Shown here in pieces: positions 43,036 through 56,243 of a DNA stretch of 64,000 nt. How positions within the stretch are numbered: position 1 is the stretch's first letter; each line of letters begins with the position of its first letter. The notes under the pieces were generated by a model that was not told the DNA's origin, made no database searches, and was given only the letters and a program-made list of their open reading frames with translations. The stretch is from NCBI RefSeq assembly GCF_021462505.1, contig NZ_JAKEDV010000003.1:173432-237431 (forward strand), read 5' to 3'. The position numbers and the translations under genes are program-made. This DNA is from Thermus brockianus. GTDB lineage: Bacteria; Deinococcota; Deinococci; Deinococcales; Thermaceae.

Positions 43036-44042
43036 CGCCCCGGGAAAGGGGCGAGGAGGGCTTCCACCTGGAAGACCTCGCCTCCCCTTCGCACGGTGAG
43101 GCGCACCCTTTCCCCCACCTCCCGCTTGCGCACCTCCCGGAGGAGGTCCTCAAAGGAGTTCACCGGGGTGCCGTCCACCTCCAGGATCACGTCGGGGACG
43201 CCCCCCGACTCTAGCCCCCTAAGCCCCGCCCGGTGGGCGGCCCCACCCGGCACCACCTCGCCCACCAGCACCCCGCCCGGGGGAAGCCCGAGCTGCTGGG
43301 CGAGGTCCGGGGTGAGGGCCCTAGGCCCCCGTAGGCCCAGGTAGGGCCAGTAGCGCCTTTCTCCCCCCTCCAATGCGGAGAGTACCCCTTGCCGCCCCAA
43401 AAGGGGCGTGTAGAAGCTCCGGAACCCCTCCTCCGTCTGGCCGATGGCCACCGCTATCCCCAGGACCTTGCCGCTAGCGTCCAACACGGGCCCGCCCGAG
43501 TCCCCGGGGGCGAGGGGGAGGGAGGTTTCCACGAGGCCTTGGGGGAGGAAGGGAGAAGGGCTCACCTCGAGGCGGGTCACCCGCCCGTACCGGGGGGCGA
43601 TGAACTGGCCCCGGCCGTTGCCGATGTGGAGCACGGCCTCCCCCACCCGGGGCCGCCTTTCCGTTTCCAGGGGAAGCGTCCTGGGCGCTTCCCCTTCCGT
43701 GGCGAGCACCGCCAGGTCCAAGGGCTCGGCGAAGCCCAAAAGCCGTGCCGGGGCCCGGGCGCCAGTAGCGAGGACCAGGGTGTAAGGCCCTCCTTCCGCC
43801 ACCACGTGGTAGGCGGTGAGGACGAGGCCTTGGGCGTAGAAGAAGCCCGTGCCCCGGCTCCCCTCGGGGCCTTCTATGCGCAAGGCGGCGGTGTGGGCCT
43901 CGGCGTAGACGGCCTGGAGGGTCTCGGGGGGTGCCTGGATGGGCTCGGCCCACGGGCGAGGGGGCGTGAGGAGGTGGAGGAAGAGGGAGAGAAAGGCCAG
44001 GGCCAGGGGCAGGAGGAGGAGTAGGCCCCACGCTTTGCGCAT
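43032..44042 (-). CDS. HtrA/DegP-like trypsin-fold serine protease with PDZ domain
   Basis: 336 residues. There is an N-terminal signal or anchor (AWGLLLLLPLALAFLSLFLHLL). The protease domain (about 50-215) has the catalytic His in LTAYHVV, Asp in EPLDLAVLA and Ser in LAPGDSGGPVLD. One PDZ domain follows (about 235-330: GVLVGEVVPGGAAHRAGLRG). It is probably a periplasmic quality-control protease. The ATG is at MRKAWG; upstream open frame is not conserved. Confidence 0.93.
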   Translation of the reverse strand: MRKAWGLLLLLPLALAFLSLFLHLLTPPRPWAEPIQAPPETLQAVYAEAHTAALRIEGPEGSRGTGFFYAQGLVLTAYHVVAEGGPYTLVLATGARAPARLLGFAEPLDLAVLATEGEAPRTLPLETERRPRVGEAVLHIGNGRGQFIAPRYGRVTRLEVSPSPFLPQGLVETSLPLAPGDSGGPVLDASGKVLGIAVAIGQTEEGFRSFYTPLLGRQGVLSALEGGERRYWPYLGLRGPRALTPDLAQQLGLPPGGVLVGEVVPGGAAHRAGLRGLESGGVPDVILEVDGTPVNSFEDLLREVRKREVGERVRLTVRRGGEVFQVEALLAPFPGR

Positions 44043-44089
44043 GCCCCTATTCTTCCCCAAAGCCCAAAGGGCCAGGGTACGCAAGGCCA

Positions 44090-45190
44090 CTATCCGTGTC
44101 CAAGGAGGAGAAGCCCGAGGAGGAAAAACCCCACCGCCGGCCAAGGAGGGGGTCGCCGGAGCAAGGTGTGGGCCAGGGCCACCCCGAGGAAGGCCAGGAA
44201 GGGGTGCGGGGATAGCGGCCCCCCCAGGGCCAGGTAAAGGAGGCCGAGGAGGGCGTTCAGGTCGTAAAGGCCCAGGGCAAGCCGGGCCGCCCGGGGCACC
44301 TCCTTGCGGAGGAGAAGCCAAAGGCTCAGGGCGAAGGCGAGCCCCACCAGGGCCCACCCCAGAAGCCGGTGGAGGCTTGGCACCCTCAAAAGGGTGGTGG
44401 GAAGCCCCATCTGGGTGTAGCCAAGGGTGGTGAGGAGGACCAGGAGAAGGCCAAACCCCATCTGGGTCCAACCGATGACCCGGGCCGGCACCGGGGGGCG
44501 GAAGAGGGCGTAGCCCCCGTAAAGGGCGAGGGCGAGGAGCCCAAAGAAGACAGCGTGGGGGAGAAGACCTTCCTGGGCGAGGAAGAGGGCTAGGGCCGCT
44601 GACAGGAAAAGGGCGAGGAGGGTGGGGTAGCGCTTGGGAGAGGCGCCCCGGGCCCTCAGCACCTGGGTGCGGGCGTAGTAGAGGGCGGCCACGTCCCTTA
44701 GGGCTAGGGCGAGGAAGCTTCCCAGGGCCACCTCCGCCTCGAGGCTCCCCGCAAGCACCCCCGCCGGGGCCAAAGCGGCCATGAAGAGGGCCGCCGCCAG
44801 CTCTGGGAAAAGCTCCCGGGACCGGTTTTTGGCGTCGGCGTAGGCCACGTAGGCGGCAAGGGGGAGGGCCAGGAGGAGGGGAAGGAGGAAGGGACCTTGG
44901 GCGGTGCGGGCGGCGAGGAGGAGGCCCGAAAGGGCTAGGAGAATGTAGAAGCCCCCCACCCTAAGGGCCAGCTCCGTGCGGGGGTAGCGCTTGCCCTTCC
45001 GCAGGTCCTGGTAAGCGAGCTTCAGCGGGTGCCGGGCCAAAAAGCCGAAAAGGCCGAGGAGGAGGAGCCCCAGGGTGTGGGGTCCAGGGGAGAGGAGAAG
45101 GCCCAGGAAAACCGGCTCCAGGGTAAAGCCCCAGCCCCCGTGCTCCGCAGGCAGGGCCACCGACCTTAGGGGAACGCTTGTGGTACGCAT
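44090..45190 (-). CDS. YwiC-like multi-span membrane protein
   Basis: 366 residues with about 10 membrane spans. The start RSVALPAEHGGWGFTLEPVFLGLL is the YwiC-like signature (PxEHG), and HPLKLAYQDLRKGKRYPRTE follows. In Bacillus, ywiC lies with narK and fnr, so the link to nitrate respiration is by context; its molecular role is unknown. GGAGG lies 6 bases before the ATG. It is the first gene of the nitrogen-oxide island from the left. Confidence 0.82.
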   Translation of the reverse strand: MRTTSVPLRSVALPAEHGGWGFTLEPVFLGLLLSPGPHTLGLLLLGLFGFLARHPLKLAYQDLRKGKRYPRTELALRVGGFYILLALSGLLLAARTAQGPFLLPLLLALPLAAYVAYADAKNRSRELFPELAAALFMAALAPAGVLAGSLEAEVALGSFLALALRDVAALYYARTQVLRARGASPKRYPTLLALFLSAALALFLAQEGLLPHAVFFGLLALALYGGYALFRPPVPARVIGWTQMGFGLLLVLLTTLGYTQMGLPTTLLRVPSLHRLLGWALVGLAFALSLWLLLRKEVPRAARLALGLYDLNALLGLLYLALGGPLSPHPFLAFLGVALAHTLLRRPPPWPAVGFFLLGLLLLGHG

Positions 45191-45233
45191 CCTCGCCTCC
45201 AGGGTAGGGGAAGGGTGCGGGGGCAAAGGTCCC

Positions 45234-45611
45234 TTAGCCCCACAGCACCTCCAGCATCAACAGGGCGAAAAGAAGCCCAGCCAGGGCAGAAAGCCCGGCG
45301 AAGACCCCCCAAAGGGTTGGGCCCCAGCCAAGCCCCCAACCCAAGGCCATGCCCAGAAGCCCTAGGTTGGCGAGACCCACCTGGACGAGGGCGAGTCCGG
45401 GCCGCCGGAAGACCACGCCCCGGAACCGGGGCAGGGCGTGGTAGGCCACGCCGTAGATCATGAGGCCCACGAAGCCCAGAAGTTGCATATGGGCGTGGGC
45501 AGGTTTCCAGGTGGGTGGCAGCATGCCAAGCCCCATCAGGAGGCCAAGGAGGTTGGCGGCCATGAACCACAGGAGGGCGCTGGTCAGGGCGAGGCGGCTT
45601 GCGGGGATCAT
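45234..45611 (-). CDS. Short membrane protein resembling part of a heme-copper oxidase subunit I
   Basis: 125 residues with four membrane spans. WKPAHAHMQLLGFVGLMIYGVAYHALPRFRG resembles a heme-binding helix pair of cytochrome oxidase/NnrS-type proteins, with three His in the first two cores. It is far too short for a complete oxidase subunit I. It overlaps the cupin gene by ATGA. It may bind heme or act in NO handling, but this is inference from motif and context. Confidence 0.7.
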   Translation of the reverse strand: MIPASRLALTSALLWFMAANLLGLLMGLGMLPPTWKPAHAHMQLLGFVGLMIYGVAYHALPRFRGVVFRRPGLALVQVGLANLGLLGMALGWGLGWGPTLWGVFAGLSALAGLLFALLMLEVLWG

Positions 45612-45904
45612 GGGCGGGGGGTGATGATGCCGAGTACCAAAAACCGCCCCTGGGCGGCCCGCGCCCCGTGGGGCTCGCCTGGGGAGGCGTCAAGGAGCGT
45701 ACCTGGCCGGGCTAGAACCTCCCGTTCCCCGGCGAAGAGGGTGCCCTCTCCTTCCAAGCAGAGGAGGTGGACTCGAGGCTCCCCCTTCCCCCTCACCTCT
45801 TGGCCGTTCTGCAGGCTGAAGAGGACCAGGCGCACCTCGGGGTAGTCGGCCAGGACTTCCACGCCCCGCACCGTTCCGAAGCGGGCATTTTCTAGGAGGT
45901 TCAT
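45608..45904 (-). CDS. Small cupin-domain protein
   Basis: 98 residues forming a single cupin barrel: LVLFSLQNGQEVRGKGEPRVHLLCLEGEGTLFAGEREVLARPGTLLDASPGEPHGARA. Two His and a Glu could bind a metal. It is translationally coupled on both sides by ATGA overlaps, within an operon that starts with the ScdA_N-like gene. Its role in NO or metal homeostasis is only suggested by context. Confidence 0.82.
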   Translation of the reverse strand: MNLLENARFGTVRGVEVLADYPEVRLVLFSLQNGQEVRGKGEPRVHLLCLEGEGTLFAGEREVLARPGTLLDASPGEPHGARAAQGRFLVLGIITPRP

Positions 45905-46104
45905 TGGCGCGCCTCCTTTTGCAGGAAGTGGGCTAAGGCGTTCAGGACCTCTATGGGGTCCTGCCCTGCCTGCCTGGCCGCTTCCTCCAAGGGCTCGGCC
46001 CCGCCGCAGCAGGTGTCCACGCCGAGCTCGTTCAGAAGCCGCACGGCTTCTGGGTAACGCCGCAAGATCTCGTTGACCGGGGTCGTGAGGGCGATCCCTT
46101 CCAT
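45901..46104 (-). CDS. Stand-alone ScdA N-terminal (DUF542) domain protein
   Basis: 67 residues: TTPVNEILRRYPEAVRLLNELGVDTCCGGAEPLEEAARQAGQDPIEVLNAL. The GVDTCCGG motif is the ScdA/YtfE (RIC) N-terminal signature. Full-length RIC proteins add a hemerythrin-like di-iron domain and repair iron-sulfur clusters after NO damage; that domain is absent here. TAGGCT lies 6 bases before the ATG, inside an inverted repeat that may be an operator. Confidence 0.88.
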   Translation of the reverse strand: MEGIALTTPVNEILRRYPEAVRLLNELGVDTCCGGAEPLEEAARQAGQDPIEVLNALAHFLQKEARQ

Positions 46105-46108
46105 GCCT

Positions 46109-46125
46109 TTAGCCTAGGGGGCTAA
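46109..46125. promoter_or_regulatory. Inverted repeat at the ScdA_N operon promoter
   Basis: TTAGCC and GGCTAA are separated by 5 bases and overlap the -10-like TAGGCT of the ScdA_N-like gene on the minus strand. The Rrf2 regulator gene lies just upstream, so this may be its operator. Confidence 0.4.
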
Positions 46126-46149
46126 GTGGAGGAGGGGCCATGACCTAGG

Positions 46150-46566
46150 TTAAACCTTTTCCGGAAGGAGATCTTTAAGGGTGAGGCTCCCTAGGGCCTT
46201 CCGGATTTCCAGGTTCATGCGTACCAGGTTGGGCTTGAGGTAGCAGACGCCCCGCCTTTCCTCTGTTGGACATCGTTTTAGGGTGGCGCAAAGGTCCAGG
46301 GCTACTGGGCCGGAGAGGGTCTCCATGACCTTGAGGAGGCTAATCTCTTCAGGGGCACCTTTGAGCCACACCCCTCCCGCACGTCCCATCCGGCTTTCCA
46401 CCAGCCCCGCCTTGGCCAGCTTGGAAAGCACCTTGGCCATGAAGGCGGGTGGGGCTTTGAGTTTTTGGGCGATCTCCATTGCGGAGAGCCCAGGTTCCTC
46501 CGCCAAAAGGAGGAGGGCATGGAGGGCATAGGACTCTTCCCGCCGAAGGAGGCTGCGCACGGGCAT
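46150..46566 (-). CDS. Rrf2 family regulator, NsrR/IscR-like
   Basis: 138 residues. A winged helix lies at about 1-85 (REESYALHALLLLAEEPGLSAMEIAQKLKAPPAFMAKVLSKLAKAGLVESRMGRAGG). Three cysteines, Cys93, Cys99 and Cys108 (C-x5-C-x8-C), can hold an iron-sulfur cluster as in NsrR. It lies between the ScdA_N operon and the NO-reductase-like operon, so NO sensing is a reasonable inference. TACCAT lies 6 bases before the ATG. Confidence 0.88.
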   Translation of the reverse strand: MPVRSLLRREESYALHALLLLAEEPGLSAMEIAQKLKAPPAFMAKVLSKLAKAGLVESRMGRAGGVWLKGAPEEISLLKVMETLSGPVALDLCATLKRCPTEERRGVCYLKPNLVRMNLEIRKALGSLTLKDLLPEKV

Positions 46567-46580
46567 GCCCCTATGGTAAA

Positions 46581-46601
46581 CCCCCGGGATTCCCCCGGGG
46601 G
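46581..46601 (-). terminator. Terminator after the heme-copper reductase operon
   Basis: On the minus strand, CCCCCGGG pairs with CCCGGGGG around GGAAT, followed by TTTA. It separates the operon from the Rrf2 gene. Confidence 0.65.
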
Positions 46602-46617
46602 CCGGGAAGGAAGGGTT

Positions 46618-48303
46618 CTACCGAACGCCGATGGGCCACGCTTGGGAAAGGAAGTAGTGATTGTAAAGATAGTACAAGAGGAAAAAGGCCAGGAAGAGCA
46701 GGGCGAGCAGGTAAACGCCTTTGGGGGTGACGGAGCCCTCCTCAGAGCGCACGGCGTAGGTGAGGCGAATCTCCTCATCGCTTAGCCGTTTACCCCAAAG
46801 GAGCGAGCCTACCACCAGTAGGACAAAAAGCAGGCCCCCTGCCAAGGAGAGCGCACCGCCAACGCCCATGGCAACAAGCAGGGTGGAAGCTTCCGGGGGG
46901 TAAGCGAAGCCGAAGGGGCTTCCCCCGAACTGGAAGGTGTCTCCGAACCGCCGGGGGAGGCCATAGACCACGCCAAGGCGCATCATCGCTAGGGAGAGCA
47001 AAGCCATGCCTAGGCCAAAGAGCCAAGGTTGCCAGGCGGCCAGGCGCGGCAAGACCACTTTCCGGCGGAAAAGAAGGGGAAGGAGGTAGTAGGTTAGCCC
47101 CATAAAGGCGAGGCTTGTCCCCACCACCACAGTTCCCTTGAAGTGGCCCACCACGGCCAGGGTATTGTGCCACTTCAGGTTCATGTCGTAAGAACCCATG
47201 GTTACGCCGCTTACGCCGCCCAGCAGGCCAAAGAGGAGTACGGAAAGGAAAAGGGCGGAGAACCCGGGATTCCCCCAGGGGGCGCGAAGGAGCCAGGTGA
47301 AAAGCCCTTGGGAAAACCCCTTTATACGTAACCCACGTTCAATGGCGGCGGGCACGGAAAAGGCATGAATCAGGCTTCCCAGGACGGCCACGTGGATGAG
47401 GTAGCCGGTGTTCACCCAGGTCCAAGCGCTGGAGAGCGCTCCTGTCGGTTCGGTGAGGAGGTGGTGAGCCGAGCCCAGGTTAATCCCTAGCAGGTAAAGC
47501 AGAAATGCGATGCGGGATAACCTTTCGCTCGGAGTTGTGCCCCCCACGGTGAAGAGGGCCAGGAGGTACCACGCGGTGACCATGGCGGCAAGGTTGACCT
47601 GTTGGGCTCCGTGGCCGAAACCCCAGTAGGTATGCCGCCACCACAAGGGATCTAGGCTCGGTAGGAGGCCTAAGGACCAGAGAAAAGCGGGGATGAAAGC
47701 GATCGCCCCCGAGAGGAGGGTGGTGGTGGCCAGGATAGCGGCGGTGAGCGCCCCGAAGGCGGCCAGGGGCATGGAGGGGCCGTAGGCCTTTGTCTTCCAG
47801 GCGCGGTGGAGGGTGAGGAAGAAAACGAGGACGGCCAAGATGGCACCCACGGCGAAGAGAAGGACCGCTAGGTAGAAAAGAGAAGGGGCCTTTAGGGGCA
47901 CGTAGGGGGTAAAGGGCAGGAACGAAAGGGGCTGGGCCATGCCCAGGTAGTTGATGAGGACCGCCCCGCCTAGCATGAGCCCGAACCCTCCCCATGCCAG
48001 CTGGGGCAGGGCTAGGGGCGTTTTGAGGATGGCGGACGCAGCGAAGTAGAGGAGGGCCACCTCAAAGAAGAGGATCCAGAAAATGAGCATGTTCCAGCCG
48101 TGCAGGAAGGTGGCCTGATAGTACAGGTTGGGGGGAACCACTTCGGGTCCAAGAACCCGGTTCAAGGTGGTGGGAATTACCCAGAGAAAACCCAGAAGCA
48201 GGAAGACCACAGCGGCCACAGCGTTCCACCGAACCAGGGTTTCGGCAACGCCAAAGAGCTTAAGCCCTGTGGCAGGGCAGGTGCGTTCTAGAGGCAGGGC
48301 CAT
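46618..48303 (-). CDS. Heme-copper reductase subunit I, probable NO reductase
   Basis: 561 residues, about 13-14 membrane spans, close to ba3-type oxidases. Visible ligands are His68 (low-spin heme), His231, His280, His281 (copper B) and His387 (high-spin heme). The oxidase motif His-Pro-Glu-Val-Tyr is replaced by His231-Gly-Ala-Gln-Gln235, so the crosslinked Tyr needed for O2 chemistry is missing. The second axial His of the low-spin heme (HFH in oxidases) is Lys389 (HFK). These changes and the nirK/nirS context point to NO reduction to N2O. It is followed by the Rrf2 regulator. Confidence 0.85.
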   Translation of the reverse strand: MALPLERTCPATGLKLFGVAETLVRWNAVAAVVFLLLGFLWVIPTTLNRVLGPEVVPPNLYYQATFLHGWNMLIFWILFFEVALLYFAASAILKTPLALPQLAWGGFGLMLGGAVLINYLGMAQPLSFLPFTPYVPLKAPSLFYLAVLLFAVGAILAVLVFFLTLHRAWKTKAYGPSMPLAAFGALTAAILATTTLLSGAIAFIPAFLWSLGLLPSLDPLWWRHTYWGFGHGAQQVNLAAMVTAWYLLALFTVGGTTPSERLSRIAFLLYLLGINLGSAHHLLTEPTGALSSAWTWVNTGYLIHVAVLGSLIHAFSVPAAIERGLRIKGFSQGLFTWLLRAPWGNPGFSALFLSVLLFGLLGGVSGVTMGSYDMNLKWHNTLAVVGHFKGTVVVGTSLAFMGLTYYLLPLLFRRKVVLPRLAAWQPWLFGLGMALLSLAMMRLGVVYGLPRRFGDTFQFGGSPFGFAYPPEASTLLVAMGVGGALSLAGGLLFVLLVVGSLLWGKRLSDEEIRLTYAVRSEEGSVTPKGVYLLALLFLAFFLLYYLYNHYFLSQAWPIGVR

Positions 48304-48306
48304 GCT

Positions 48307-48843
48307 TCACCTCCTTGACTTCTCCACCAGGATTCTTCCCAGCATGGTGTGGTGTCCCAAGCCGCAGTAGTCGTTGCAGACGAGGGTGTATTCGCCGGCC
48401 TCGGTGGGTTTAAAGGTATACACCCACTCATAGCCCGGGTAAAGCTGGAGGCTCCACTCGTGGGGGTAAAGGCTAAAGCCGTGGGGGAAGTCCACAGAGC
48501 CCACATGGAGCCTGTAGGTTTCCCCTTCTTCAAGCTTTAGGACAGGGTACCAGCTGAAGGCTTGAGCCATAAGGTAAATGTCGCCAGGGGGTGGAGCCAC
48601 CACGGGGATCCCGTTCAGCTCTCCCACGCGGTGCTGCTCGGTGAACTCCAAGACCTTTTGCCGATAGGCCTGGGGGTCCACCCGGTACGCCTCGCCATGG
48701 GTGGTTTGGCGGCCTGTAAGGTGCCATATGCCCATGAAGGCGGATAAGAAAACGATGGCGAAGAGGGCCGCCAGGGTCAACCAGGTCCGCTCTTCGGGAG
48801 TAACGGGTTCATTGTGCCAGTCCTTGGGAGGATAAAGGGCCAT
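48307..48843 (-). CDS. Heme-copper reductase subunit II with CuA centre
   Basis: 178 residues. One N-terminal span (WLTLAALFAIVFLSAFMGIWHL) is followed by a cupredoxin domain. CuA ligands are all present: His121 (VDFPHGF), Cys156, Cys160, His164 and Met167 (CNDYCGLGHHTM), with the same spacing as in ba3 oxidase. It would take electrons from a cytochrome c or cupredoxin. The ATG at MALYPPKD follows AAGGAGG; longer open frame upstream overlaps the small subunit. Confidence 0.92.
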   Translation of the reverse strand: MALYPPKDWHNEPVTPEERTWLTLAALFAIVFLSAFMGIWHLTGRQTTHGEAYRVDPQAYRQKVLEFTEQHRVGELNGIPVVAPPPGDIYLMAQAFSWYPVLKLEEGETYRLHVGSVDFPHGFSLYPHEWSLQLYPGYEWVYTFKPTEAGEYTLVCNDYCGLGHHTMLGRILVEKSRR

Positions 48844-48853
48844 AGGGACCTCC

Positions 48854-48979
48854 TTAAGGCTTGGGGATACGGCTGATGTCCAGCCAACCCCACACGAGGT
48901 AGAGGCCGACAAAGAGGACCACGTGGATGCCGAGGAGGAGCCAGGGGTTGTCCAAGAGCCAGTGTTCCTTTTCGGGCAT
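48854..48979 (-). CDS. Small single-span subunit of the heme-copper reductase
   Basis: 41 residues: a short N-terminus (MPEKEHWLLDNPWL), one membrane span (LLGIHVVLFVGLYLVWGWL) and a short tail. AAGGAGG lies 7 bases before the ATG, and the stop codon is part of the ribosome binding site of subunit II. Size, topology and position match the small subunit (IIa) of ba3-type enzymes. Confidence 0.8.
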   Translation of the reverse strand: MPEKEHWLLDNPWLLLGIHVVLFVGLYLVWGWLDISRIPKP

Positions 48980-49007
48980 GTGCCACCTCCTTTAACTACG
49001 ACCTACA

Positions 49008-49042
49008 CATCCGAGTTTTATGGAAGGCCGGAAGGGTGTCAA
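49008..49042 (-). promoter_or_regulatory. Promoter of the heme-copper reductase operon
   Basis: On the minus strand, TTGACA (49037-49042) and TAAAAC (49015-49020) are 16 bases apart. The sequence from TAAAAC onward is very similar to the nirK promoter, including CGGATG, GTAGGTC and AGTTA. TTGACA is a perfect -35 box. Confidence 0.7.
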
Positions 49043-49080
49043 GTACAAAAGTCCCTGGGCGGCTCCCCTAAACTTGGCCT

Positions 49081-49524
49081 ATGCCCTTGTGGCTTCCTTC
49101 CCTGATGGCCCTCCTGCCGGCTCACCTACAGAGTCTGGGTGCGGGATTGGGCTGGAAAGGGTTCTGTGGGGACCTGTTGGCAAGCCTGGGACAAAGGGCA
49201 TATGGGGGAGCGGCGGAAGCCTTTTTTTACGAGAGCGTGTTGTTGTGGGGGTTAATCCTTCAGGGGGGGCTAGGCTATACCCTTCTTTTCCTCAGCTTGG
49301 TTCTTCCGGAGGCTTTGAAGGGGGGTGTGGGAACCTTGCTCCGGGCCTCTTCAGGGCTTTTGGCCCTAAGCCTTGCGGCCTTCTACTTGGCCTCGAGGCT
49401 CCTTGGTCTGCCCCTTCCCACCCCTTACGGCCTCGCATGGGGAGGACGGGCGGCCTGGGACCCCTTGGGCGGGTTTTTGGCCCTATGGGAGCTATTGGTG
49501 TTTTGGATCTTCTTGCGGCGCTAG
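49081..49524 (+). CDS. Hypothetical multi-span membrane protein
   Basis: 147 residues with about three to four hydrophobic segments (SVLLWGLILQGGLGYTLLFLSLVL, LLALSLAAFYLASRLLGLPL, LGGFLALWELLVFWIFL). No family recognised. TAAACT lies 6 bases before the ATG. It is divergent from the reductase operon and its 3' end overlaps the convergent DUF454 gene by 33 bases. Confidence 0.65.
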   Translation: MPLWLPSLMALLPAHLQSLGAGLGWKGFCGDLLASLGQRAYGGAAEAFFYESVLLWGLILQGGLGYTLLFLSLVLPEALKGGVGTLLRASSGLLALSLAAFYLASRLLGLPLPTPYGLAWGGRAAWDPLGGFLALWELLVFWIFLRR

Positions 49525-49875
49525 GGTGGGGATCCGCCACCAGAGGAAGTAGATCCCATAGGCAATGAGGAGGAGCACGAGGATCCGGACCCAAGGGTGG
49601 GGGAGGCTAAGGGTGCCGAAAAGCGCCGCTGCCAAGGCTAGGCCGCTGGCTAAGCGTTTGGTGCGGAGGGGTATGCCGCGGCCTTCCCGGTAGTTCTGGA
49701 GCAGAGGGCCGATCCTGGGCAAGGAGAGCAGCCAGCGTTCCAAGCCAGGGTGGCTGCGGGAAAAGAGATAAACGGCGACCAGGAACAGCGGGGTGGCGGG
49801 GAGGACGGGAAGCACGGTTCCCAAAAACCCTAACCCGGTGAAGAGTAGGCCGAGTAGGAGATAAACGAGCCGCAT
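49492..49875 (-). CDS. DUF454 (YbaN-like) inner-membrane protein
   Basis: 127 residues: MRLVYLLLGLLFTGLGFLGTVLPVLPATPLFLVAVYLFSRSHPGLERWLLSLPRIGPLLQNYREGRGIPLRTK is the typical YbaN start, with PVLPTTPF-like and FSRSHP motifs. Function unknown; often near respiratory genes. TAGACT lies 7 bases before the ATG. Confidence 0.88.
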   Translation of the reverse strand: MRLVYLLLGLLFTGLGFLGTVLPVLPATPLFLVAVYLFSRSHPGLERWLLSLPRIGPLLQNYREGRGIPLRTKRLASGLALAAALFGTLSLPHPWVRILVLLLIAYGIYFLWWRIPTLAPQEDPKHQ

Positions 49876-49907
49876 AGCTCGTAGTCTATGCCTGCGCTGT
49901 GGGGTTT

Positions 49908-49929
49908 GGCCTTGGGTTATGTCAAGGCC
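49908..49929. repeat. Inverted repeat upstream of nirK
   Basis: GGCCTTG (49908-49914) and CAAGGCC (49923-49929) are separated by 8 bases. It lies between the divergent DUF454 and nirK genes and may be an operator or a transcript stem. Confidence 0.35.
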
Positions 49930-49959
49930 TAACCCTGTCCCAGGATGAGGGCTAGATCG

Positions 49960-50006
49960 GGACATCTGCCACAAGGACACCTGTCCTTGGGGGTGGGTGC
50001 TAAAAC
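49960..50006 (+). promoter_or_regulatory. nirK promoter with two GGACA-type operator sites
   Basis: The perfect palindrome GGACA-CC-TGTCC (49975-49986) is centred 20.5 bases before TAAAAC (50001-50006). A weaker copy, GGACATCTGCC (49960-49970), lies 15 bases upstream. The same palindrome occurs at dnrS/narC and, with one mismatch, at nirS. Confidence 0.65.
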
Positions 50007-50048
50007 ACGGATGAGTAGGTCCGAGTTAGGGCCTACCGGAGGTGAACG

Positions 50049-51416
50049 ATGAAAGGTGCAAGGTTCCTGTTGGTGGCGGCTGTGGCCCTTGGGGTGCCTG
50101 CCTTAGCAGCGGTCAAACGTTTTGAGCTGACGGCGCAAAGCAGCGTGTTCCCCGTGGACGAGGGGGTTTACGTAAAGGGGTTTTCCTTTAACGGCATGAG
50201 CCCAGGGCCCATGCTGGTGGTGGAAGAGGGCGATACTGTGGAGATAGTTCTCAAGAACGTGGATAGCGTAGCCCACGGGCTCTCCATCCACGCCGCTAAC
50301 ACTCAGACCTCCAAATTCCTGGGCAACGTCCAGCCGGGGGAGGAGCGGGTCTTTCGTTTCACCGCTGACTTCCCGGGGGTCTTCATGTACCACTGCGCCC
50401 CGGGTGGGCACGGGATTATGGCCCATACCATGGGTGGCCAGCACGGCATGATTGTGGTGGAGCCGAAGAAGAAGTACCGCCTCGAGGCCGAACTAAAACG
50501 CCCGCCTGACCTCAAGCTCTACATTGTCCAGAGCGAGTGGTACGCTTCGGGAAGGGACTTCTTTGATGGCAAGGCCACCTATGTGGTTTTCAACGGGTAC
50601 AACTTCCGCTACGTTAACGAGCCCATTCCCGTGCGGCCGGGCGACTACGTGCGCATCTACTTCCTTAACGCCGGTCCCAGCCTCACCAGCACCTTCCACG
50701 TGGTGGGGGGCGTTTGGGAGTACATCTACTACCAGGGCAACCCAGACAACGTCATGAAAGGCAGCCAGACCGTGCTGGCGGGTCCTTCGGACTCCTGGGT
50801 TATTGAGTGGCGGGTGCCTCCGGTGGAAGGGGACTATACCCTGGTAACCCACGTCTTCAATACCGCCATCAAGGGAGCAGTGGGAATATTGCGGGCCAAG
50901 AAGGACGCCCCGCGGGTGCGCACGGTGCCGGCGGAGGGGCCGAAGGCCCTCACCGCCATCCCTGCGGACGCGAAGCGGGTGCTGGACCCCTACGGTCTGG
51001 GAACCCCTGACCACGAGCACACGGTTCGCTTGCCCCTGGACCCCGCCTTGGCCCAACCCGTGACCGTGGGGGCAAAGGCCCTGGATCCCTTGCCCGTGCG
51101 GGTACAGATGGTAGGCAACTCCTTCTATCCCAAGATCTTGGAAATCCCCGTGGGAACCACGGTGGAGTTCGTCAACGAGGACGTCTTTGACCTCTTGGAA
51201 GGAGAGCGCACGGGACGGCACGACGCCGTGGTCATCAACGTTCAAGGGCCCGAGCCCTTTGTTACCCCCAAGCTGGGTCACGGGGAGCGGTACCGCATTA
51301 CCTTTACCCAGCCCGGAGAGTACACCTACATCTGCAGCATCCACCCCTACATGAAGGGGATCATCCGGGTGTACGAACCCGCGCAGCGGGCTGAAACCTC
51401 GCAACACCAGCACTAG
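50049..51416 (+). CDS. nirK: Copper nitrite reductase, three-domain type
   Basis: 455 residues with a signal peptide (about 1-21). Two cupredoxin domains plus a third at the C-terminus. Type 1 copper: His76, Cys116, His126 and Gln131, where most NirK have Met. Type 2 copper: His81, His115 and a His in YTLVTHVFN. The usual catalytic Asp is Ser79 (HGLSIH). The catalytic His lies in TSTFHVVGG. The third domain has Cys429, His432 and Met435 (YICSIHPYMKG). This Ser/Gln, three-domain form is the one described for T. scotoductus. It reduces nitrite to NO in the periplasm. Confidence 0.96.
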   Translation: MKGARFLLVAAVALGVPALAAVKRFELTAQSSVFPVDEGVYVKGFSFNGMSPGPMLVVEEGDTVEIVLKNVDSVAHGLSIHAANTQTSKFLGNVQPGEERVFRFTADFPGVFMYHCAPGGHGIMAHTMGGQHGMIVVEPKKKYRLEAELKRPPDLKLYIVQSEWYASGRDFFDGKATYVVFNGYNFRYVNEPIPVRPGDYVRIYFLNAGPSLTSTFHVVGGVWEYIYYQGNPDNVMKGSQTVLAGPSDSWVIEWRVPPVEGDYTLVTHVFNTAIKGAVGILRAKKDAPRVRTVPAEGPKALTAIPADAKRVLDPYGLGTPDHEHTVRLPLDPALAQPVTVGAKALDPLPVRVQMVGNSFYPKILEIPVGTTVEFVNEDVFDLLEGERTGRHDAVVINVQGPEPFVTPKLGHGERYRITFTQPGEYTYICSIHPYMKGIIRVYEPAQRAETSQHQH

Positions 51417-51429
51417 CCAAAGGTTAGGT

Positions 51430-51463
51430 CCCCCGGAGGCTACCCTCCGGGGGCTTCTTTCTT
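51430..51463 (+). terminator. nirK terminator
   Basis: CCCCCGGAGG (51430-51439) pairs perfectly with CCTCCGGGGG (51444-51453) around CTAC, followed by the T-rich CTTCTTTCTT. Confidence 0.85.
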
Positions 51464-51519
51464 GGAAGCTATGCGTCGGGGATCTTTTGTAGCTAGGTTT
51501 TCCAGGGACCTTTGCCCTA

Positions 51520-51551
51520 GGACATCTGTACTACTCGGATATGGGTATCCT
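51520..51551 (+). promoter_or_regulatory. nirS promoter region
   Basis: GGACA-TC-TGTAC (51520-51531), one mismatch from the nirK palindrome, is centred 20.5 bases before TATCCT (51546-51551). TACTAC-TCGGAT (51529-51540) also aligns with the -10 region of the nirK and NO reductase promoters, so the true -10 box is ambiguous. Confidence 0.5.
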
Positions 51552-51569
51552 AGTTAGCAGAGGTGTGCC

Positions 51570-53180
51570 ATGAAAAAGGCGATGGGCCTGTGGGGTGCGG
51601 TTTTGGTGGCGGCCTTGGCTTTGGCCCAGGCTCCGGGAACCTTGGGTCCAGTGGAGCGGGAGCGGGCTTCGCAGATCTACTTTGACCGTTGCGCCGGTTG
51701 CCACGGGGTTTTGCGCAAGGGGGCAACGGGGCCTGCCCTGGAGCCTAGGCGGATGGCGGAGCGGGGCCTAGAGTACCTGAAGGCGGTGATCTTTGGGGGG
51801 CTCCCTGGGGGCATGCCCGACTGGGGGCGGCAAGGCATTCTGAGCGAGAAGGACACCGAGCTGGTGGCCCGCTTTCTCCTAGAAGAACCCCCAGCGCCCC
51901 CGATTCCGAGCTTTGAGGAGGTCAAGAAGACCTGGAAGGTCTACGTGCCCCCGGAGAAGCGTCCCAACCGCCCGCTCCATAACCGTAACTGGCAGAACTT
52001 CTTTGGCCAGGTGTTGCGGGACACGGGTCAGGTGGCCATCGTTGACGGGGACAAGAAGGAGCTCGTAACCATCGTGCCTACGGGGTTCGCCACCCACATT
52101 CTCCGCTCCTCGGCCACGGGGCGCTACTTCATGGCAATAGGCCGGGATGGCAAGGCCAGCCTGATTGACCTTTGGATGAACCCGCCCCAGGTGGTGGCGG
52201 AGGCCAAGCCCTGTGTGGACGCCCGCTCCATAGAGTCCAGCAAGTTCAAGGGCTACGAGGACAGGTATGCCGTGGTGGGATGCTACTGGCCACCCGCCAT
52301 GGTCATTCTGGATGGTCTTACCCTCGAGCCCCTGAAGATGGTTTCCACCATGTCCTATGTCAAGGGGGCAGGGGAGTTTGTCCAAGAGGCTAGGGTGGCC
52401 GCCATCGTGGCCAGCCAGCACAACCCTGAGTGGATCGTCAACCTAAAGGAGTCGGGGCAAACCTGGCTGGTAAACTACGCCGAGCTCCATAAGCCGGGCC
52501 GCCCGCTACCCATCACGATGATAGACACCGAACGCTTCCTGCACGATGGTGGGTGGGCGCTAAAGCGCTACTTTATCGTGGCGGCCAATGCAGTAAACAA
52601 GCTTATCGTCATTGACACCAAAACCCGGGCGTTCCTGGCCGAGGTGGAAGCGGGGGTAAGACCCCACCCGGGCCGTGGCTCCAACTGGACCCACCCCACC
52701 TACGGGCCCGTCTGGGCCACAGGCAACATCGGCAGCCCCGAGGTGACGGTGGTGGGCGTGGATCCCGAGCAACACCCCCAATACGCCTGGAAGGTGGTGA
52801 AGCGAATCCAACTTCCCTACTCCGGCACCCTGTTCATCAAGGCCCACCCCAATAGCCCGTGGGTCATCGTGGACTTCCCCATGAGCCCAAGCCCCCAGGC
52901 TGCAGCCAGCCTTTGTGCCATAGACAAGCGCAAGCTGGAGGTGGTGAAGTGCTGGGAGGTGCCCGGAGCCCAGGAGCTTAAGGCCCGGATGGTGCACCCC
53001 GAGTTCAACAAGGGGGGAACGGAGATCTGGGTCTCTGCCTGGGGGGCCAAGGACACGCCCACCTTCATCGTGGTCTACGATGCCTTGACCCTTAAGGAGA
53101 AGGCCCGCATCACCGGGGACTGGGTGCGGACTCCTACGGGCAAGTTCAACGTCTACAACACCGCCTACGACATCTACTAG
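51570..53180 (+). CDS. nirS: Cytochrome cd1 nitrite reductase
   Basis: 536 residues. There is a signal peptide (about 1-20). The heme c domain has Cys41-x2-Cys44-His45 (CAGCH). The heme d1 eight-bladed propeller (about 120-536) includes GQVAIVDGDKKELVTIVPTGFATHILRSSATGRYFMAIGRDGKASLIDLW and the C-terminal EIWVSAWGAKDTPTFIVVYDALTLKEKARI. It reduces nitrite to NO in the periplasm. It lies directly downstream of nirK, so both nitrite reductase types are present. Followed by nirJ and a cytochrome c gene. Confidence 0.95.
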   Translation: MKKAMGLWGAVLVAALALAQAPGTLGPVERERASQIYFDRCAGCHGVLRKGATGPALEPRRMAERGLEYLKAVIFGGLPGGMPDWGRQGILSEKDTELVARFLLEEPPAPPIPSFEEVKKTWKVYVPPEKRPNRPLHNRNWQNFFGQVLRDTGQVAIVDGDKKELVTIVPTGFATHILRSSATGRYFMAIGRDGKASLIDLWMNPPQVVAEAKPCVDARSIESSKFKGYEDRYAVVGCYWPPAMVILDGLTLEPLKMVSTMSYVKGAGEFVQEARVAAIVASQHNPEWIVNLKESGQTWLVNYAELHKPGRPLPITMIDTERFLHDGGWALKRYFIVAANAVNKLIVIDTKTRAFLAEVEAGVRPHPGRGSNWTHPTYGPVWATGNIGSPEVTVVGVDPEQHPQYAWKVVKRIQLPYSGTLFIKAHPNSPWVIVDFPMSPSPQAAASLCAIDKRKLEVVKCWEVPGAQELKARMVHPEFNKGGTEIWVSAWGAKDTPTFIVVYDALTLKEKARITGDWVRTPTGKFNVYNTAYDIY

Positions 53181-53187
53181 CGGGTTT

Positions 53188-53209
53188 GGGGGAGGGGAGA
53201 CCCTCCCCC
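53188..53209 (+). terminator. Hairpin after nirS
   Basis: GGGGGAGGG (53188-53196) pairs with CCCTCCCCC (53201-53209) around GAGA. No T-run follows, so partial readthrough into nirJ is possible. Confidence 0.65.
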
Positions 53210-53223
53210 ATGACCCGGGTCAT
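53210..53223. repeat. Perfect 14-bp palindrome before nirJ
   Basis: ATGACCCGGGTCAT is its own reverse complement. It sits between the nirS hairpin and the nirJ start and may be an operator for nirJ. Confidence 0.5.
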
Positions 53224-53259
53224 GGACGCTTACCGTGCTTTCGGCAAAAGCTTGGAACG

Positions 53260-54399
53260 ATGGAACACCCTGATTTTACCCAGTACCCCTACTTGGTCGC
53301 TTGGGAGGTGACCAACGCCTGCATGCTGGCGTGCCGGCACTGCCGGGCCTCGGCCATGCCCCACCCGCTTCCCGGCGAGCTTTCCACCCAAGAGGGCCTA
53401 AGGCTTTTGGAGGAGGTGGCCACCTACCGGCCCAAGCCCCTCCTCCTTCTTACCGGGGGGGATCCCCTGGCCCGAAGCGACCTCTTTCTCCTGGTGGAAC
53501 GGGCCAGGGAGCTGGGGCTCAAGGTAGGGCTCACCCCTGCGGCCACCCCGCTCCTGAACCGAGAGATGGTTTTCCGGCTCAAGGAGGCGGGGGTTACCCG
53601 GCTCGCCCTTTCCTTGGACGGGGCGGCGCCGGAGACCCACGACGCCTTCCGGGGGGAGAGGGGGACCTTTGCCCGGACCCTCGAGGCCCTGGACTGGGCC
53701 AAGGAGGCGGGGCTTCCCACCCAGGTGAACACCACCGTGACCCGAGACAACTGGCCGGAAATCCAAGCCCTTCCCCCTCTTCTGGCGGAGAAGGGCGTGG
53801 TGCTTTGGAGCCTGTTCTTCTTGGTACCGGTGGGCCGGGGAGCGGTGCTTAGGCAACTTTCCGCCCGGCAGTTTGAGGAGGTCCTCCACTGGCTTTACGA
53901 GGTCTCCCAAACGTACCCCTTCCACGTGAAGACCACGGAGGCCCACCACTTCCGCCGGGTGGTCCTGCAAAGGCGGAAGGCGGAAGGAAGGCCGGACCGG
54001 GCCTTGGCCGCAGGGGAGAGCCTTTACCGGGAATATTTCCAAGATGGTATGGAGCATTCCCGCCTGGGGGTTACGGACGGCAACGGCTTCGTTTTCGTCT
54101 CTGCCACCGGGGATGTTGCCCCTTCGGGCTTTTTGCCGGTGTATGCGGGTAACGTGCGCGAAAAGCGCCTTCTGGAGATTTACCGGGAAAGCCCACTCTT
54201 TCGCCAGCTCCGTAACAAGGATCTCCTGAAGGGCAAGTGCGGGGTGTGCGAGTACCGCTATGTGTGCGGGGGTAGCCGGGCCCGCGCCTTTGCGGAAACC
54301 GGGGATTACCTCGGGAGCGATCCCCGTTGCGTCTATGTTCCCCCGGCTTGGTTGGCGCAAGTGGGTAAGGGTTTCCGTTGGGAAGGGAGGCAGGCATGA
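53260..54399 (+). CDS. nirJ: Radical SAM heme d1 biosynthesis protein NirJ
   Basis: 379 residues. The radical SAM cluster is CMLACRHC (about residues 17-24). TGGDPLARSDLF and SLDGAAPETHDAFRG follow. The C-terminal SPASM-type cluster has CGVCEYRYVCGGSRARAFAETGDYLGSDPRC. NirJ acts on the porphyrin side chains during heme d1 synthesis for NirS. The other heme d1 genes (nirE, nirD/L/G/H, nirF, nirN) are not in this window. It overlaps the cytochrome gene by 4 bases. Confidence 0.92.
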   Translation: MEHPDFTQYPYLVAWEVTNACMLACRHCRASAMPHPLPGELSTQEGLRLLEEVATYRPKPLLLLTGGDPLARSDLFLLVERARELGLKVGLTPAATPLLNREMVFRLKEAGVTRLALSLDGAAPETHDAFRGERGTFARTLEALDWAKEAGLPTQVNTTVTRDNWPEIQALPPLLAEKGVVLWSLFFLVPVGRGAVLRQLSARQFEEVLHWLYEVSQTYPFHVKTTEAHHFRRVVLQRRKAEGRPDRALAAGESLYREYFQDGMEHSRLGVTDGNGFVFVSATGDVAPSGFLPVYAGNVREKRLLEIYRESPLFRQLRNKDLLKGKCGVCEYRYVCGGSRARAFAETGDYLGSDPRCVYVPPAWLAQVGKGFRWEGRQA

Positions 54400-54824
54400 A
54401 AAAGGCATTGGTGTTGACGGCTGTAGGGCTTTTTCTAGGCGGCGTATGGGCACAGGATGGAAGCCGGCTTTACGCCCAATACTGCGCCGGTTGCCATCAA
54501 CCCGCCGGGCAGGGGGTAGCGGGGGCGTTCCCGCCCCTCACGGGCCTGGAGCCTTTCTTCAAGGACCCACGGGGACGCTCCTACCTGGTTCAGGTCGTGG
54601 CCTTCGGCCTCCAGGGACCCCTTAAGGTGGGCAACGTGACCTATAACGGCCTCATGCCGGCCTTGGCCCAGCTAAAGGATGAGGAAATCCTTCAGCTACT
54701 CAACTACCTGGGCCAAAGCTTTGGGAACAAGAACCCTAAGCCCTTCACCCTGGCCGAGGTTCAGGAGGCCCGAGCCAAGCGCCTTTCCCCGCAGGAGGTG
54801 CTCAAGGGGAGGCCTTCCCGCTAG
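54396..54824 (+). CDS. nirM: Mono-heme cytochrome c, probable NirS electron donor
   Basis: 142 residues. There is a signal peptide (about 1-19) and heme site Cys30-x2-Cys33-His34 (CAGCH). The axial Met is likely in YNGLMPALAQL. The C-terminal tail after residue 110 is longer than in small cytochrome c551. Translationally coupled to nirJ by ATGA, it would feed electrons to NirS or NirK. The symbol is given by position. Confidence 0.82.
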   Translation: MKKALVLTAVGLFLGGVWAQDGSRLYAQYCAGCHQPAGQGVAGAFPPLTGLEPFFKDPRGRSYLVQVVAFGLQGPLKVGNVTYNGLMPALAQLKDEEILQLLNYLGQSFGNKNPKPFTLAEVQEARAKRLSPQEVLKGRPSR

Positions 54825-54829
54825 AAGCC

Positions 54830-55378
54830 TTAGCCCAAGGCGTGGTCCGGGCAGGCCAGGCGCAGGTCCTCTGGGGCCAGGGGGAGGTGGAGGAGGGCGC
54901 AGTAAAACCCTCCTTCCCGCCGCAGGTGGCGGCAGGTGAGGCAGAGGCCGGTATCGGCCATCACCCCTTGGCGCACGAGCCCCTCGAGGACCCCCATGAG
55001 GGGGAAGAGGAGGCTTTCGGCGTCTACCCCCTCGAGGGCCTTCCGCAAGGGTTGGGCATAGCCCTTTAGGGCCTCGGCCAGGCGCCTTCCCGCCGCCGTG
55101 GGGGCGAGGCGGAAGCGGCGCCCGTCTTTAGGGTCTTTTTCCCGCACCAGAAGCCCTTTCCGCTCCAACGTGGCCAAGGCCTCGCTCACCGTGGCCGGGG
55201 TGAGGGCCAGGAGGTGGGCGAGGTCCACCACCCCGTGGGGGCGCTCGGTGAGGTGGAGGAGGAGTTGGGCCTGGGTGGCCGTAAGGCCCAGGGGGTGGGC
55301 CTCCCGGGTGAGGAGCGCCCTTTCCGCCTGGGCCAAGCGTTCTAGAAGGGCGAGGAGCTTTTCTACCCGGTCTTCCAC
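54830..55378 (-). CDS. MarR family regulator with cysteine-rich C-terminal extension
   Basis: 182 residues. The winged helix spans about 10-135 (TQAQLLLHLTERPHGVVDLAHLLALTPATVSEALATLERKGLLVREKDPKDGRR). The C-terminal tail holds Cys146, Cys149, Cys160 and Cys176, which could bind zinc or an iron-sulfur cluster. It starts at GTG with TAAGCT 6 bases upstream, inside a perfect palindrome that may be its own operator. It lies downstream of the P460 gene on the same strand. Redox or NO sensing is inferred. Confidence 0.85.
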   Translation of the reverse strand: MEDRVEKLLALLERLAQAERALLTREAHPLGLTATQAQLLLHLTERPHGVVDLAHLLALTPATVSEALATLERKGLLVREKDPKDGRRFRLAPTAAGRRLAEALKGYAQPLRKALEGVDAESLLFPLMGVLEGLVRQGVMADTGLCLTCRHLRREGGFYCALLHLPLAPEDLRLACPDHALG

Positions 55379-55379
55379 C

Positions 55380-55393
55380 CCCTAAGCTTAGGG
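55380..55393. promoter_or_regulatory. 14-bp palindrome overlapping the MarR gene promoter
   Basis: CCCTAAGCTTAGGG is fully self-complementary. On the minus strand it contains the -10-like TAAGCT of the MarR gene and also the stop codon of the P460-like gene. Confidence 0.5.
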
Positions 55394-55867
55394 CCGGAAC
55401 TCGCTGAAGACGTAATCGGTGTTGGCCGCCCCTTGGTGGCAGGCGTGGCAGGCCTTGGGGTCAATGGCCAAGGGCCGCTTGTCGGGCCCGAAGGCGTAGT
55501 AGCCCCAGCCTCCCGTTTCCGCATAGCGCTCGGGGTCTTTGACCATCATCCCGATGAGCTTCCTCGGGCCTTCCACCAAGGCGTTCCCCTCGCTTTTGGC
55601 TTCCAGGAGGTCAAAGACGATGACCGTTCCCTTGGGGAAGGGGGACCTTTTCCCCGCCTGGTAGGTGGGAAGCCCCGTGGGGTTCACATAGATGTGGTGC
55701 AGGCCGCCAAAGCTCTCGTACAAGGGATGCCCTGGCTTGAGCTCCATGCTCTTCACGTGGGGCCAAAGCCGGAAACCCTCTGGGTAGGGGAAGTCCCCTT
55801 GGCCCAAGGCCAGGAGTCCTACCGCCGAGGCCGCGAGGAGGAAAAACCGCAGACGTGACCGGTTCAT
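55388..55867 (-). CDS. Cytochrome P460-like (c'-beta-like) periplasmic heme protein
   Basis: 159 residues. There is a signal peptide (MNRSRLRFFLLAASAVGLLALGQ). The beta-rich P460 fold has FPYPEGFRLWPHVKSMEL and GTVIVFDLLEAKSEGN. Heme attachment is CHACH near residue 143. P460 and c'-beta proteins bind NO or oxidise hydroxylamine, which fits NO protection here. Whether the Lys crosslink of true P460 is present cannot be judged. The ATG follows AAGGAGG. Confidence 0.85.
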   Translation of the reverse strand: MNRSRLRFFLLAASAVGLLALGQGDFPYPEGFRLWPHVKSMELKPGHPLYESFGGLHHIYVNPTGLPTYQAGKRSPFPKGTVIVFDLLEAKSEGNALVEGPRKLIGMMVKDPERYAETGGWGYYAFGPDKRPLAIDPKACHACHQGAANTDYVFSEFRP

Positions 55868-55877
55868 ACCTACCTCC

Positions 55878-55916
55878 TTAGGATTCCTAAATAATATGGC
55901 CTCCCCTTGGGGCCTG
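55878..55916 (-). promoter_or_regulatory. Promoter and palindrome of the P460-like gene
   Basis: On the minus strand, TTGACA is followed 18 bases later by TATTAT. Just downstream lies TTAGGA-A-TCCTAA (55878-55890), a perfect odd palindrome between the -10 box and the ribosome binding site. Its half-site TTAGG/CCTAA also occurs in the MarR palindrome. Confidence 0.6.
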
Positions 55917-56243
55917 TCAAGCCTTGGGCCAGGGGCCCTCGAGGCTCCCCTTGAGCGGCGTTTTTGTACCGCCTCCCCTGGGCGCAGAAGCGCAGGGTGC
56001 CCCGGCCTTTTGGGGCTAAAGCCTTCAGCTTCGCTAGGGTTTCCCGCAGGTTCCGCCCGGTGACGGGCAAGGAGAGAGGGTACTTGGCCGGCTTGTGGGC
56101 GAACCCACGGCGTCGGGCACCGGAGGGGGCGAACCCCTTGGCCCACCGTCCACCCGGGCCCCTCCTGGGAGAGGCCATAGACGGCCCGCCAAAACCCTAA
56201 GCTCGTCTTCCGGTGCCGGGAGGGCGGTAGACCCGCTTGACCT
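55917..56243. other. Non-coding or decayed stretch
   Basis: About 330 bases with no gene I can support. A minus-strand open frame (55870-56178) reads through it with segments such as KPAKYPLSLPVTGRNLRETLAKLK, but it has no clear start signal, no recognised family, and runs into the P460 promoter. It could be the remnant of a broken gene. GACC/GGTC at 56239-56250 can form a small hairpin. Confidence 0.4.

Follow-up and report, generated by a model that had tools for sequence, protein, structure and literature searches.

The gene trio at positions 46618–48979 of the window (the whole 64,000-nucleotide stretch of Thermus brockianus DNA analyzed here) is, as judged from its sequence, a three-subunit eNOR, in which the Gln feature and the kind of NO reductase are already known and only one trait stands out: a lysine, Lys389, where the second axial histidine of the low-spin heme would be expected. 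To our knowledge, ligation of the low-spin heme by two His is regarded as invariant throughout the heme-copper superfamily. The window enzyme departs from this two-His rule, keeping the first ligand (H68) and carrying Lys389 at the second position. eNORs are described as B-family NO reductases with Gln in place of the Tyr and with a CuA subunit (PMC8756737). The features of the trio are as follows.

46618..48303, minus strand: eNOR subunit I, the B-family heme-copper catalytic subunit, 561 aa (open reading frame; PDB sequence and fold matches to ba3/B-family oxidases; groups with eNORs)
47137..47139, minus strand: Lys389 codon (AAG); the aligned residue of ba3 is His386, its second axial ligand of the low-spin heme
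47599..47601, minus strand: Gln235 codon, the eNOR hallmark; ba3 has its cross-linked Tyr, Tyr237, here
48307..48843, minus strand: eNOR subunit II, ~178 aa, with a single membrane span at its N-terminus and a cupredoxin domain for CuA (TIGR02866 CoxB match; invariant CuA ligands)
48854..48979, minus strand: small single-helix subunit, 41 aa, like ba3 subunit IIa (other eNOR operons have homologues in the same location)

Subunit II is taken to begin near 48843, at an in-frame ATG; a TTG further upstream opens the longest open reading frame call.

We aligned subunit I with the ba3 oxidase of the same genome. The CuB ligands (H231, H280 and H281, corresponding to ba3 H233, H282 and H283), the high-spin heme ligand (H387, ba3 H384) and the first low-spin heme ligand (H68, ba3 H72) were all kept, in agreement with the initial annotation, which had listed all CuB and high-spin heme histidines as present. 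The same annotation had read residues 231–235 as HGAQQ, with the cross-linked Tyr lost, and residues 387–389 as HFK, with Lys at the second low-spin heme His; the alignment bears out both readings, pairing Q235 with ba3 Y237 and K389 with ba3 H386. The latter assignment is independent of alignment detail, because no gap falls between H387 and K389 (HFK versus HFH). In subunit II, the CuA site that had been called intact has its whole ligand set (H120...C155-N-D-Y-C159-G-L-G-H163-H-T-M166, in the numbering of the aligned stretch), and these ligands are invariant in an alignment of seven homologues; the CuA subunit supports the earlier proposal that electrons would enter through CuA rather than a NorC cytochrome. 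The 41-residue third subunit was likewise found, with counterparts of 41–61 aa immediately upstream of subunit II in eNOR operons of other phyla.

The scaffold had been described as ba3-like, and both the B-family fold and the PDB sequence matches agree with this. For the AF2 model of subunit I (pLDDT 86.7), the best solved-structure matches were ba3 oxidases (TM ~0.79, ~25% identity). The T. thermophilus ba3 oxygen reductase (1EHK and relatives) shares the fold, the I/II/IIa plan, the ligand positions and CuA with the window enzyme, but has Tyr237 and His386 where the latter has Gln235 and Lys389; Gln at the Tyr237 position excluded identity as a ba3-type oxygen reductase. At positions of the one proton channel expected to be conserved in an eNOR, S310 and Y246 are kept in the sequence alignment (ba3 S309 and Y248), ba3 T312 is replaced by His313 and ba3 Y244 by Val. 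The heme-copper descent of subunit I is not in doubt, and Lys389 is a variant site within it.

Gln at the Tyr site is diagnostic of eNORs (PMC8756737, Table A4), whereas sNOR, bNOR and gNOR have Asn or Asp there (PMC8756737); Gln235 ruled out these three families. This Gln was present in all 142 aligned eNOR rows (48 Lys and 94 His) and in all 80 further eNORs, from many phyla, found in a scan of one genome per species. In a tree with four B-family oxidase rows and with archaeal eNORs left out, subunit I fell among the eNORs, which were split from the B-family oxygen reductases at 100/100. Identity as cNOR or qNOR was rejected, as the PDB sequence matches were to B-family oxidases only and subunit II is a CuA protein; a true Thermus NorB, used as a control, matched 4xyd/3o0r. 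A Thermus sequence is already present in the published tree, as is, in the same work, the gene arrangement seen here, with the CuA cupredoxin subunit II gene immediately upstream of subunit I (PMC8756737). The suggestion in the initial annotation that a ba3-like scaffold had been turned to NO reduction thus fits the eNOR membership, although it is not new, the eNOR family having been published (PMC8756737).

Lys389, which that annotation had singled out, was invariant in 44 distinct eNORs, namely 9 from Thermus, 19 from Aquificota and 16 from Bacteroidota; ~115 other eNORs had only His at this position, and across the ~160 eNORs no residue besides H or K was seen. The nine Thermus copies, all HFK, came from seven genomes and two plasmid records, and the Aquificota and Bacteroidota genes are those spanning the site from searches around two HFK genomes. 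Among the 80 eNORs of the one-genome-per-species scan, 78 had HFH and two had HFK (one Aquificota, one Bacteroidota). HFH was also found in ~30 eNORs of another Bacteroidota class, the class holding Rhodothermus marinus, and in five eNORs of another Deinococcota family (L217–L221). Accordingly, Lys is not an oddity of Thermus, as Aquificota and Bacteroidota eNORs carry it too, nor an eNOR-wide trait, as most eNORs have His, including those of the R. marinus class and of the other Deinococcota family. The Lys groups share Y61, G175, G255, W427 and L443, unlike most His-type eNORs.

Changing His to Lys generally takes two base changes. Codon 389 was AAG in eight of the eight Thermus genes checked, and dN/dS among the Thermus genes was ~0.05–0.12; these genes are under strong purifying selection. 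Since Lys is invariant in 44 genes of three phyla and dN/dS is this low, its presence is not due to chance. A pseudogene, a sequencing error or a misalignment would be suggested by the oddity itself and by nothing more, and this explanation, to which we attach next to no weight, is refuted by the conservation data: besides the uniform AAG codon and the low dN/dS (~0.1), the frame is open in every Thermus copy, and the residue recurs in independent assemblies from three phyla.

We further considered the possibility that the enzyme is an eNOR in which Lys389 is not an iron ligand, the low-spin heme being five-coordinate or having water or hydroxide as its sixth ligand, with Lys serving otherwise, for instance as a charge near a propionate or in proton transfer; in that case the heme would be in part high-spin and open to NO binding. 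The ligand role is read from an alignment, and Lys is often labile in natural His/Lys hemes (PMC6879331), both of which are consistent with such an arrangement. However, the Lys, a residue able to ligate, never varies and lies exactly at the ligand position of the gap-free HF[H/K] motif, and mere ligand loss should give Ala, Asn, Gln and the like, rather than the H or K to which the ~160 eNORs are confined. We therefore regard a non-ligating Lys389 as rather unlikely, and ligation of the iron by Lys389 as the simplest reading of the sequences. Comparison of 48 Lys-type with 94 His-type rows revealed no conserved His or Met specific to the Lys group: its conserved His (68, 231, 280, 281, 313, 379 and 387) were all equally conserved in the His group, and its conserved Met were common to both, so nothing points to a replacement heme ligand. 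Another His as ligand of the low-spin heme, the outcome that the initial annotation had named as counting against itself, is accordingly unsupported.

His/Lys hemes occur naturally in the hemoglobin THB1. They also occur in TsdA of Allochromatium vinosum, in which the potential is lower and the Lys is labile (PMC6879331). These proteins provide a precedent for the ligand pair, although both are unrelated soluble proteins and not integral-membrane cytochromes. In the literature searched we found no Lys heme ligand of a heme-copper enzyme, no account of the eNOR low-spin heme, and no spectrum, heme-containing structure or activity of a Lys-type eNOR; the Lys at the eNOR low-spin heme site may already have been noted in the main eNOR paper (Murali et al. 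2024).

The one purified and characterized eNOR is reportedly that obtained by Murali et al. in 2024 from R. marinus. The R. marinus-type eNOR resembles the window enzyme in the Gln at the Tyr site, the CuA subunit II, the small subunit, the CuB and high-spin heme His, residues S310, Y246 and H313, and the link to nirK/nirS, but the eNOR of an R. marinus-like genome (G591) has HFH where the window eNOR has HFK. The ACIII subunit of G591 matches 6F0K_C at every one of the 353 residues that follow the start codon, 6F0K being, as we take it, the structure of the R. marinus ACIII complex, and because of this identity G591 represents R. marinus or a very near relative. Since this genome has an HFH eNOR, the purified enzyme is probably bis-His, and since the characterized eNOR came from R. 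marinus, the Lys-type appears never to have been purified.

In a tree computed with residue 389 masked, the Aquificota and Bacteroidota Lys-types formed one clade, and Thermus lay on a separate long branch. In one data set a single origin of Lys came out best (the tree constrained to it was better by 1.96 log units, p-AU 0.555); in a wider data set two origins were favored, although one origin was not rejected (p-AU 0.273). As a single origin was rejected in neither, Lys would have arisen once or twice and then stayed. Placement of the Thermus eNOR as sister of the other Deinococcota eNORs, which are His-type, was rejected (p-AU 0.0018), implying a separate acquisition. The G+C content is 0.60–0.65 at ~44000–56000 of the window versus 0.66–0.72 over most of the remainder, and third-position GC is lower too. 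The eNOR/nir cluster was also found on T. thermophilus plasmids, on one of them near the nar operon. The low G+C content, together with this plasmid occurrence, suggests that ~44000–56000 is a mobile denitrification island. The genes flanking the trio are listed below.

45234–45611, minus strand: 125-aa protein with an AHAH motif (weak match to the COX1 C-terminal half, E 1.7e-5, below cut-off)
45901..46104, minus strand: ScdA_N/DUF542 protein (PF04405), a relative of the N-terminal part of iron-sulfur repair proteins that respond to NO
46150..46566, minus strand: regulator of the Rrf2 family, within the IscR/NsrR superfamily, encoded immediately downstream of subunit I (PF02082, TIGR00738; synteny on T. 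thermophilus plasmids)
50049..51416, plus strand: NirK-like copper nitrite reductase carrying an extra cupredoxin domain at its C-terminus (TIGR02376, 153.8 bits, under the curated cut-off; Pfam)
51570..53180, plus strand: NirS, cytochrome cd1 nitrite reductase (PF02239, E 2.3e-107, and a cytochrome c domain)
53260..54399, plus strand: radical SAM protein of the TIGR04053 family (483 bits, over cut-off), with relatives among the heme b/heme d1 maturases

The NirK-like protein scored well under the curated Cu-nitrite reductase cut-off, and annotation pipelines may therefore miss its gene. The 125-aa AHAH protein also occurs in the T. thermophilus plasmid clusters, where it is annotated as hypothetical.

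In the genome that contains the window (99.98% complete), cNOR and qNOR were absent, and the heme-copper enzymes were caa3, ba3 and the eNOR. This content bears on whether the enzyme might, when oxygen is low, act mainly on O2 (or on some other substrate), making it a microaerobic or detoxifying oxidase within a denitrification cluster. Such a role would accord with the database annotation as cytochrome c oxidase and with the description of eNORs as possibly proton-translocating (PMC8756737). However, the enzyme lacks the cross-linked Tyr found in heme-copper oxygen reductases, separate caa3 and ba3 oxidases are encoded in the same genome, the neighbors are nir genes and no other heme-copper NO reductase is present, which makes an oxidase role improbable. 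cNOR (NorBC), the usual NO reductase of Thermus, shares with the window enzyme its presumed reaction and its genomic setting, but belongs to another heme-copper family and uses the NorC cytochrome c where the window enzyme has CuA.

Among 27 Thermus genomes, seven carried eNOR, ten an intact cNOR and one both, so that the cNOR gene was absent from six of the seven eNOR genomes. A mutual exclusion of eNOR and cNOR within the genus is suggestive only (Fisher P 0.07–0.16). The single genome with both (G024) has the cNOR and eNOR genes side by side (L211:627–6354). Previous surveys of Thermus screened norBC as the sole NO reductase genes. T. brockianus and T. oshimai strains without norCBH produced no N2O, and NO accumulation was inferred for them (PMC9270275); if the present eNOR is encoded in these strains, its performance under the conditions concerned may be poor. 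Outside Thermus, the Aquificota Lys-type eNOR lies in a single gene run with SCO1 and nirS, and the Bacteroidota Lys-type eNOR has a Crp-type regulator upstream. A 427-aa heme-copper-like protein (L074:9644–10927, plus strand) lies between the Aquificota eNOR and SCO1/nirS; it keeps GHLQQ and the AHYH pair, lacks the CuB His-His pair and is a putative reduced eNOR-like paralogue. A Bacteroidota Lys-type CuA subunit II (L115:7058–7978, plus strand) carries a fused cytochrome c domain at its C-terminus, the arrangement of caa3 oxidases.

With moderate confidence, we favor the reading that the window enzyme is a CuA-fed eNOR-type NO reductase whose low-spin heme has His68 and Lys389 as axial ligands. 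Electrons would be delivered to the CuA of subunit II by a cytochrome c or cupredoxin of the periplasm, from CuA they would pass to the low-spin heme of subunit I and on to the high-spin heme/CuB site (H387; H231, H280 and H281). There, two NO from the neighboring NirS and NirK would be converted to N2O, with Gln235 replacing the oxygen-splitting Tyr. The low-spin heme would be held by His68 and Lys389 rather than by two His and, by analogy with TsdA, would probably show a lowered potential and greater ligand lability. Both NO turnover by the enzyme and the effect of Lys on the heme potential are what we infer, and a low-potential His/Lys heme would count against the model, as electron transfer from CuA to the heme would be harder. 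Lys may serve electron-transfer gating or heme protection. For the wider claim that an eNOR lineage of Thermus, Aquificota and some Bacteroidota is truly His/Lys-ligated, the first such case in the superfamily, having arisen once or twice and tuning or gating electron transfer to the NO site, we see the chances as about even.

If true, a His/Lys low-spin heme breaks the two-His rule of the heme-copper superfamily. Screens requiring all His ligands would discard the Lys-type eNOR lineage. A conserved and selected Lys at this site offers a natural test of how ligands control heme potential and the gating of electron transfer. Moreover, for Thermus strains that were scored as being without an NO reductase, the eNOR is a candidate enzyme by which N2O could form in hot springs.
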